This document shows, in pieces, positions 6,151 through 7,215 of a stretch of 37,342 nt of DNA (its first letter is position 1; every line of letters begins with the position of its first letter). The position numbers were made by a program, and so were the translations under genes. Location: assembly GCA_021297855.1 (NCBI GenBank), contig JAJTHM010000064.1, positions 1-37,342 of the forward strand, given 5' to 3'. A model generated the notes under the pieces. It saw only the letters and a list, made by a program, of their open reading frames with translations, had not been told where the DNA came from and did no database searches. The DNA comes from Sphingobacteriales bacterium. GTDB lineage: Bacteria > Bacteroidota > Bacteroidia > Chitinophagales > JADJOU01.

Positions 6151-6225
6151 GCACCGTTCGTCTATCGGTTAGGACTTCAGGTTTTCATCCTGGCAAGAGG
6201 AGTTCGACTCTCCTACGGTGTACCA
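6151..6225 (+). tRNA. tRNA-Glu (anticodon TTC)
   Basis: A full cloverleaf can be drawn. The acceptor stem GCACCGT (6151-6157) pairs with ACGGTGT (6215-6221), with a G·U at the end. The anticodon stem TCAGG/CCTGG encloses loop TTTTCAT with anticodon TTC at 6184-6186. The T stem AGGAG/CTCCT encloses loop TTCGACT (6203-6209). The discriminator is A6222, followed by an encoded CCA (6223-6225). It reads GAA/GAG codons. A promoter lies just upstream and a terminator starts at the CCA. The 3' part from 6195 is repeated about 600 bases downstream. Confidence 0.97.
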
Positions 6226-6252
6226 AAGCCCTCTTTTTGAGGGCTTTTTTTA
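6225..6252 (+). terminator. Terminator of tRNA-Glu
   Basis: Nine-bp stem AAAGCCCTC (6225-6233) with GAGGGCTTT (6239-6247), a T5 loop, followed by a T run. An almost identical copy is found at 6855-6882. Confidence 0.9.
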
Positions 6253-6259
6253 TATATTT

Positions 6260-6472
6260 ATGATTACAGTCTATGTCTTAATTAGTTTGATGGATGGTGC
6301 TATTTATGTAGGAATGGTAAAGGATATAGAAAATAGACTACGCGAACATAATCAAGGAAAAAATCGATACACCAAGGGTCATATTCCATGGAAAATTATT
6401 TATACAGAAATATTTCCAAATTGGACAGAAGCAAGGGTTCGAGAAAAATATTTTATAGGATATCTTATTTAA
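6260..6472 (+). CDS. Small GIY-YIG nuclease-domain protein, possibly shortened at the C-terminus
   Basis: A 70-aa protein consisting only of a GIY-YIG fold. VYVL (4-7) and IYVG (15-18) stand for the GIY and YIG motifs. Arg26 in ENRLREHNQGK and Glu62 in ARVREKY match the catalytic Arg and Glu. The segment NRYTKGHIPWKIIYTE is typical of the small UvrC-like or UPF0213-like stand-alone members common in Bacteroidota. Those usually continue after REKYLK with a Ser-Gly-rich helix to 80-100 aa; here the frame ends at FIGYLI and stop, so the tail is missing or altered. The ATG at 6260 lies right after the tRNA terminator. It lies between the tRNA-Glu gene and the repeated tRNA 3' end. Nuclease activity is inferred. 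Confidence 0.75.
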   Translation: MITVYVLISLMDGAIYVGMVKDIENRLREHNQGKNRYTKGHIPWKIIYTEIFPNWTEARVREKYFIGYLI

Positions 6473-6544
6473 TTCGCAAACCCCTATGAATATTAGCTTT
6501 CCTCAATGAGCCTCCAATAAGAACTCGTTAAAATTACGACTGAA

Positions 6545-6597
6545 AAGCGCAGAAAATTTTAGTCGAGGTACGAGACAATTAAAATTTTCCGCTTTGA
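6545..6597. repeat. Imperfect inverted repeat around AAAATTTT cores
   Basis: AAAGCGCAGAAAATTTTA at 6545-6562 is matched in inverted orientation by TAAAATTTTCCGCTTT ending near 6595, with about a 17-base loop (the left arm carries two bases not matched exactly). It could fold as a long hairpin. I believe similar blocks recur in Bacteroidota genomes, but that is from memory and unchecked. Confidence 0.6.
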
Positions 6598-6642
6598 GGA
6601 AGATAATTTTAGAGTTTGTTTGGGAGCTCTTGACTTTTTTTG

Positions 6643-6672
6643 TTACTTTTTTGGGTCAAGCCAAAAAAGTAA
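6643..6672. repeat. Perfect 12-bp inverted repeat (TTACTTTTTTGG)
   Basis: TTACTTTTTTGG (6643-6654), loop GTCAAG (6655-6660), CCAAAAAAGTAA (6661-6672). A similar TTGAC/GTCAA pairing extends the structure on the left. As a terminator it is weak because no T run follows on either strand. It is more likely part of a dispersed repeat. Confidence 0.7.
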
Positions 6673-6797
6673 AGAAGACTAGGATCTTTACTATATCTAG
6701 TTTTGCGAATAATCTCATAAATTCTAATATTTTAAATCTACTCTTGGCAAAAATTGGTTGAGAAAAAATGGATTTTTGTGATTTATTTATTCAAATT

Positions 6798-6881
6798 AAG
6801 AGGAGTTCCCTGCCTGACTGCGTCATGCAGACAGGGACTCTCCTACGGTGTACTAAAGCCCTCTTTTTGAGGGCTTTTTTT
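6798..6881 (+). repeat. Duplicate of tRNA-Glu 3' end plus terminator, interrupted by a palindrome
   Basis: Bases 6798-6808 equal 6195-6205 and bases 6836-6881 equal 6206-6251 with a single change (C6224 to T6854, turning CCA into CTA). That is 56 of 57 matching positions. The two parts are split by 27 extra bases at 6809-6835. The copy holds the T arm, 3' acceptor strand and terminator, but no 5' half of a tRNA, so it cannot make one. Direct repeats of a tRNA 3' end are the usual trace of site-specific integration at the tRNA, or of unequal recombination in a former tandem pair. Confidence 0.9.
6809..6835. repeat. 27-base palindrome inserted in the T-loop of the tRNA-Glu remnant
   Basis: Ends CCTGCCTG and CAGACAGG pair with one mismatch, and inner TG/CA pairs close a short loop. 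It falls between C6205 and G6206 of the original sequence, in the middle of the TTCGACT loop. Flanking bases extend the pairing (TCCCTG with CAGGGA). No target-site duplication is visible. Confidence 0.8.
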
Positions 6882-6882
6882 G
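6855..6882 (+). terminator. Second copy of the tRNA-Glu terminator
   Basis: AAAGCCCTC, T5 loop, GAGGGCTTT and a T run, identical to the terminator at 6225-6252. No nearby upstream transcript is known apart from possible read-through from the GIY-YIG gene, which it could end. Confidence 0.75.
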
Positions 6883-6941
6883 TATAAGGGAAATTTTTAT
6901 TATGCTAGTACGCTTCCTTACCACAAAACTATGTGCAGATT

Positions 6942-6971
6942 CCTGCATTCTGACGCTTAGGTCAGCACAGG
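6942..6971. repeat. Palindrome with CCTG…CTGAC…GTCAG…CAGG arms
   Basis: CCTG (6942-6945) pairs with CAGG (6968-6971), and CTGAC (6950-6954) with GTCAG (6961-6965), around the loop GCTTAG. The end motifs match those of the palindrome inside the tRNA remnant, suggesting one REP-like family. Confidence 0.6.
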
Positions 6972-7030
6972 TTCGTTGGAATGACGAGGTCTCTGACCAT
7001 TAGCGTCCGCCTCTGGTGGATGAAGCGCAG

Positions 7031-7073
7031 CCCTGTTTGTCAACAGACAAGCCTGTCTGTCGACTAGGCAGGG
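7031..7073. repeat. Compound palindrome with CCCTG…CAGGG ends
   Basis: Outer CCCTG (7031-7035) and CAGGG (7069-7073) enclose two alternative hairpins. One is ACAGACA (7043-7049) with TGTCTGT (7054-7060). The other is CCTGTCT…GGCAGG over 7052-7072. End motifs are shared with the palindromes at 6809 and 6942. Confidence 0.6.
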
Positions 7074-7215
7074 GAATTCAGGAATCTATTTTATTAGTGG
7101 TAAATATGCGCATTAGCAGAATTTTTATTAAGAGAATTTAATAACTCCTGACCTATATACCCCAATAATCAAAAGTTTGAGAAAGATCAGAAATTCTTTA
7201 AATAGGATCCTCCAA

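Follow-up and report, generated by a model that had tools for sequence, protein, structure and literature searches.

A probable broken copy of a tRNA-targeting homing element with a small GIY-YIG nuclease gene at a Bacteroidota tRNA-Glu locus

In WHO elements, described at FBA1 in Torulaspora and Lachancea yeasts, a nuclease gene separates an intact essential gene from its own displaced end; every homing event substitutes a new end, and gene-and-fragment arrays build up and later degenerate (PMC7282813). The authors of that work propose that, once FBA1 has been cut, the WHO-bearing allele serves as repair template with the downstream FBA1 fragment as the second homology arm, and that clusters arise by repeated homing (PMC7282813). 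The accessible part of a study of Glomus and Allomyces mitochondria describes mobile endonuclease ORFs that bring a replacement gene end (atp6, atp9, cox2 and nad3); the native end of the gene stays on the downstream side, and in one case, atp9, the enzyme is of the GIY-YIG type (PMC3630166). The T-even phage enzyme SegB, also of the GIY-YIG type, is presented in the accessible part of its report as enriched near tRNAs and as driving the tandem amplification of tRNA and nuclease (PMC13096335). The closest solved sequences and folds to the nuclease studied here are the small UPF0213 GIY-YIG proteins (1zg2 and 1ywl) and SLX1, although tRNA linkage has not been reported for them. Short repeated hairpins inserted in other sequences are represented by the REP/RAYT palindromes and the Rickettsia palindromic elements.

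The window, by which we mean the whole analyzed stretch of 37,342 nucleotides, probably contains a broken copy of a tRNA-targeting homing element. WHO is the closest worked-out case, and we suggest that the same logic operates at bacterial tRNA genes. Compared with WHO, the target is a bacterial tRNA gene, the nuclease is a lone GIY-YIG domain of about 80 amino acids and not an intein-like HO protein, the displaced fragments bear a hairpin, and the 5′ end appears to be replaceable as well as the 3′ end. The ORFs of Glomus and Allomyces differ in being mitochondrial, in using protein genes and in being single events, and neither hairpins nor tRNA-specific lineages are described in the part of that account available (PMC3630166). 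Likewise, SegB belongs to phages, and the available part of its report describes neither displaced hairpin-bearing tRNA fragments nor lineages of one nuclease for one tRNA (PMC13096335). In contrast to the REP/RAYT and Rickettsia palindromes, the hairpins found here are mostly within tRNA fragments and differ by tRNA identity.

At the window locus, ARAGORN reports a single tRNA, the intact tRNA-Glu(TTC) at 6151..6225 (+), the putative target and host gene of the element. Its terminator, AAAGCCCTC/GAGGGCTTT with a T run, is at 6225..6251 (+) and would have arrived with the element. A preliminary description had claimed that the tRNA-Glu 3′ end and terminator are duplicated, which was reproduced exactly: 6195-6251 and 6798-6881 show 1 mismatch in 57 positions once a 27-nt insert is taken out, and the sole mismatch changes CCA to CTA in the second copy. 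The repeat search of the window gave a 51-nt direct repeat with 96% identity (6206-6256 and 6836-6886). According to the sequence and this search, the second copy has only the 3′ part of the tRNA, a displaced fragment of T arm and acceptor at 6798..6854 (+), followed by its own terminator at 6855..6881 (+). The fragment is interrupted in the T loop, between C56 and R57, by the 27-nt palindromic hairpin CCTGCCTGACTGCGTCATGCAGACAGG (6809..6835, +).

The two copies enclose the gene of a small GIY-YIG protein, as had been described (PF01541, E 2.2e-15). The 5′ part of this ORF (6260..6472, +) carries the catalytic Y, G, R, H and E and belongs to the Glu clade; it is natural sequence to approximately 6451, then runs into a MITE-like dispersed repeat (6452..6732, with no strand assigned) and stops. 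Beyond the repeat, 6737..6781 (+) reads STLGKNWLRKNGFL followed by a stop, the expected nuclease C-terminus when compared with KSTAGKNWLRSQGFL in the relative L080 (also L079). The nuclease gene is therefore split and the window element is broken, in agreement with the remnant that was among the earlier readings. The MITE-like repeat is about 280 bp long, has imperfect terminal inverted repeats of about 25-34 bp (the inverted repeat 6456-6480/6702-6726), aligns with copies at contigs C105, C122 and C106, and makes up most of the DNA separating the nuclease from the second tRNA-Glu copy; it explains the inverted repeats previously remarked upon there. No integrase ORF is present in 6252-6797, as also stated before. 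The copy of the MITE-like repeat on C105 has an additional palindrome, TCCCGAAACTTCGGGA. Immediately 3′ of the second terminator, 6895-7129 is another dispersed repeat of about 235 bp with imperfect terminal inverted repeats, found at about 20 further places in the genome with identities of up to 97%.

The nuclease is a single GIY-YIG domain of about 80 amino acids, most of the proteins having 75-110, and Y16, G18, R26, H30 and E62 are invariant across 44 aligned sequences. The AlphaFold model is confident (pLDDT 95.9), and its structural neighbors, UPF0213 1zg2, SLX1 and I-TevI, have the GIY-YIG nuclease fold. These proteins contain no separate DNA-binding domain, such as that of I-TevI, beyond GIY-YIG, and nothing like an HO/intein-like protein with a zinc finger; with its single small domain, the nuclease is therefore not a member of the WHO family and would only work like one. 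Some of the genes overlap tRNA sequence. In upstream-type elements the stop codon of the nuclease lies within the tRNA gene in 9 of 13 cases, often as a TAG ending at tRNA position 23, and in Asn-group nucleases (L123, L121, L165 and L117) the coding sequence of the C-terminus, LAQLVRVPHVRD, lies in the displaced tRNA copy together with the hairpin of that copy.

The host genome, G000 (3.1 Mb in 134 contigs), has nine GIY-YIG places. At tRNA-Val(TAC), tRNA-Met and tRNA-Leu(CAA), the nuclease sits between the intact tRNA and its partial copy. The order is reversed at tRNA-Leu(CAA), on another contig, where a 5′ half copy with two palindromes is followed by the nuclease and then by the intact tRNA; two tRNA-Leu-type units stand in tandem on contig C82. 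Hairpin-bearing partial copies without an adjoining nuclease occur for Ser, Val(GAC), Gln, His, Ala, Phe, Met, Pro and Ile, and such fragments may be remnants. A search of the genome gave 32 occurrences of the palindrome CCTGYCTG-N-CAGRCAGG and 0 of the reversed control; in 21 of 27 distinct contexts the palindrome is flanked by tRNA sequence.

In each of the three congeners that have the region, the site syntenic to this tRNA-Glu is empty and reads lptG, tRNA-Glu and one terminator, with neither a nuclease nor a second tRNA copy. The same kind of block also adjoins many other tRNAs, and both observations support the mobility put forward in the preliminary description. At tRNA-Leu(CAA) the element is intact in G000, reduced to a decayed nuclease and 5′ half in G001 and to a remnant in G002, and the site is empty in G003; tRNA-Asn is occupied in three congeners and unoccupied in G000. 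The most informative locus is tRNA-Val(TAC). In G003 and G001 the tRNA is followed by one terminator, AAGTCATCTCTTTTGAGATGA. In G000 a terminator of this type stands after the displaced fragment (94% and 96% identity), while the terminator of the intact tRNA-Val is unrelated to the native ones and 95% identical to that of congener G002, which carries the same element. Thus the displaced end is the native end of the recipient and the intact gene has the end of the element; tRNA-Val is the one clear case of such a replacement. The step is not visible at the window locus because its two terminators are nearly identical.

To place these loci in a wider frame, we collected 118 distinct short GIY-YIG genes from 60 relatives within the order and named contigs, a sample of best-scoring and listed matches and not a random draw. 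A tRNA lies within 100 bp of 56 of them and within 700 bp of 70, and the gene is co-oriented with the tRNA in 70/70. In the nuclease tree, which is based on 62 columns and leaves many branches poorly resolved, 70 of 74 evaluable members of one clade have a tRNA within 700 bp, compared with none of the 29 members of the sister clade. Of the four members that lack a nearby tRNA in the first clade, two sit further along a tandem array as later units. The clade that is never near a tRNA may be the counterpart of the UPF0213/SLX1 proteins. The amino acid identity of the tRNA changes 21 times on the tree versus 40.6 on average in 300 shuffles, none of which needed fewer than 35 changes, and the upstream or downstream side changes 15 times versus 14.4, without clustering; the lineages therefore hold their tRNA and switch sides. 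The window nuclease falls in the Glu group, alongside Chryseobacterium and Chitinophagaceae, and the Leu nuclease copies of the host genome branch inside the same group, probably reflecting a switch of target.

Bracketing was examined by searching the far side of the nuclease for a same-strand copy of each tRNA, the query being extended by at most 50 bp of flanking sequence. A far-side copy of the same tRNA was found in 42/51 cases of the first set (31/37 with the nuclease downstream, 11/14 upstream), versus 24/408 for other tRNAs, and in 37/44 of a second, phylum-wide set that left out loci known to repeat the first (30/33 downstream, 7/11 upstream), versus 16/352. When the sets are pooled, the arrangement known from WHO, a nuclease gene between an intact target and its displaced end, is present at 79 of 95 tRNA-adjacent genes, and other tRNAs as query gave 40/760. 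The type of copy mostly follows the side, a 3′ part with the nuclease downstream and a 5′ part with it upstream. Regardless of nuclease, 18 of 92 tRNAs of four congeners have a partial copy within 600 bp by a more stringent search that used the tRNA body alone at E 1e-4; tRNA fragments are thus common even without a present nuclease, yet much rarer than beside one.

In the displaced copies a hairpin often occupies the T, D or anticodon loop, or the anticodon arm is replaced. Four stem classes were distinguished, and 46/79 displaced copies showed one of them versus 43/950 background windows. The class of a hairpin depends on the identity of the tRNA (mutual information 0.779 versus a shuffled mean of 0.362, maximum 0.57 of 2000). 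These statistics overstate significance because related sequences are non-independent and the classes were picked after viewing the list. The hairpins of the lineages are TGGCGCC for Pro, TCCGCC for Met, TCCCGA for Asp/Val/Ala/Gly and CCTGCCTG for Arg/Leu/Glu/Phe, and the Pro hairpin is common to contigs labeled Chloroflexota, Ignavibacteriota and Bacteroidota. It is a tentative possibility that the hairpin is a working part co-evolving with nuclease and tRNA, in which a structure-specific GIY-YIG enzyme recognizes the folded arms of the tRNA gene and the lineage-specific hairpin marks self or end; the ground for a structure-specific enzyme is the fold near SLX1.

Profile members are present in 157 of 247 Bacteroidota genomes (E ≤1e-10). 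Phylum-wide, 75 of 91 genes (50 loci) are within 700 bp of a tRNA, every one co-oriented, and most of the remainder are later array units or at contig ends. As in WHO, there are tandem clusters and decay, the latter in the tRNA-Leu series described above and the former at the array loci L289, L291, L290 and L294. In the one-contig genome G289, tRNA-Leu(CAG) is followed by five 450-bp units and tRNA-Arg(CCT) is preceded by three, and G223 has five units of about 365 bp after tRNA-Met; arrays in one-contig genomes are not artefacts of draft assembly. Members beside tRNAs were also found on single MAG contigs labeled Chloroflexota, Ignavibacteriota and Gottesmanbacteria, for which binning errors are possible. 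A phage origin was considered and rejected: phage matches are weak (≤46% identity), with no tRNA beside the two inspected. No family member was found in viral contigs, and plasmid records gave two weak matches.

The family consists of very small elements, each with a nuclease gene for about 80 amino acids between an intact tRNA and a hairpin-disabled fragment of that tRNA, and we suggest that they are selfish DNA that spreads by cutting tRNA genes and by self-templated repair. The unit, a GIY-YIG endonuclease gene with a piece of tRNA, would encode an enzyme that cuts the element-free allele of one tRNA gene. Repair of the break from the element-bearing copy would use two homology arms, namely the intact tRNA and the displaced fragment. 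In this way the recipient would gain the nuclease gene and a replacement tRNA end, either the 3′ end with terminator or the promoter with 5′ end, and its own end would be pushed to the far side to become the displaced fragment. The hairpin, which breaks up the tRNA loops of this fragment, probably blocks cutting or tRNA function. Tandem arrays would result from repeated rounds or from recombination, with copies decaying afterwards. The fragment boundaries do not point to one cut site, since they lie in the T loop, the D loop or the anticodon arm depending on the lineage. Resistant alleles were also considered: T-loop base changes at Glu and Lys would fit them, but Val does not.

The arrangement could also be a tandem duplication or unequal crossover of the tRNA with one copy decaying, in which the nuclease hitch-hikes or amplifies its surroundings without homing, like SegB of phage T6. 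This is unlikely in our judgment, but the tandem arrays of near-identical units fit it, SegB-dependent segmental amplification of tRNA and nuclease is already described in the accessible part of PMC13096335, and the unequal crossover proposed in the preliminary description is compatible with the window locus taken alone since both of its ends are nearly identical. However, plain tandem duplication cannot produce the arrangement at tRNA-Val in the same genome, with a foreign terminator on the intact tRNA and the native one displaced, and it leaves unexplained the strict order of a nuclease between copies and the nuclease lineages that track tRNA identity across families and phyla. A decayed pair of intact tandem tRNA-Glu genes is even harder to maintain, and we consider it extremely improbable: a related nuclease in Chryseobacterium (L078) does have two tRNA-Glu genes in its vicinity, but a single tRNA-Glu is present at the syntenic site in 3/3 congeners, none with two intact genes, and the second copy in the window is the 3′ part alone.

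tRNA 3′ ends are classic integrase targets, and a direct repeat does bracket the DNA here, so that a remnant of a prophage- or ICE-type element with attL/attR repeats and a lost integrase was an early candidate. It now appears highly implausible. The window block has no integrase, the units examined (about 300 to 630 bp) all contain a GIY-YIG gene, and it is with this gene itself that the association lies. Moreover, instead of a fixed att core, the far-side copies have boundaries that range over tRNA positions 4 to 73, many reach well into the tRNA, and some are the 5′ end with its promoter; the attL/attR interpretation was not supported. A toxin-immunity pair, in which the nuclease attacks the tRNA as RNA and the adjoining tRNA copy is a resistant form, is very improbable. 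The pairing of nuclease lineage with tRNA identity would agree with it, as would the tRNA alleles, which differ at some occupied loci (Lys, Asn and Glu). Against it, the intact tRNA-Val is identical between occupied and empty congeners, the structural neighbors are SLX1, I-TevI and UPF0213, and to our knowledge GIY-YIG enzymes of known activity act on DNA.

The homing-element family proposed here is likely undescribed; in the literature searched, which excluded bioRxiv and most subscription journals, we found no description of the nuclease/tRNA-fragment arrangement. If the interpretation is right, these widespread bacterial elements would be among the smallest known homing elements (about 350 bp with one gene for about 80 amino acids), living on tRNA genes whose ends and flanks they keep rewriting, and they would be a bacterial counterpart to the WHO elements of yeasts, one for which a handful of proteins and synthetic tRNA genes would suffice as a test system. 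They would account for unusual tRNA pseudo-copies in Bacteroidota assemblies, and for contig breaks caused by repeats there, and would be a source of many small nucleases specific for tRNA genes. They also pose the question of how an 80-amino-acid domain reads one tRNA gene among some forty.

Several other features of these genomes involve tRNA or GIY-YIG genes. Downstream of tRNA-Ser(TGA) in the host genome (L040 and L041, on C25 and C109) are at least eight units of about 138 bp without a nuclease, each consisting of the T arm, whose loop contains a palindrome, the 3′ end and the terminator of this tRNA. A GIY-YIG gene on C134 (L004:1460-1760) is flanked by an apparent inverted repeat, CCCCGTTACAAATTTT / AAAATTTGTAACGGGG, and apparently lies within a transposase-like gene; its 3.2-kb locus contains no tRNA. 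The tRNA-Glu of G003 and, in similar form, of G001 (L184 and L185) and the tRNA-Leu of G000 (L007) have a common downstream sequence, AACCCTCGAAACTCAATGTTTTCGGGGGTTTTTGC ... TTTTGTCCCCCTAATGTCCCC, which resembles the end of an integrated element using several tRNAs. In G002, ten ARAGORN tRNA genes are densely clustered at C21:27500-31500 (L230), like some phage or mobile tRNA arrays.
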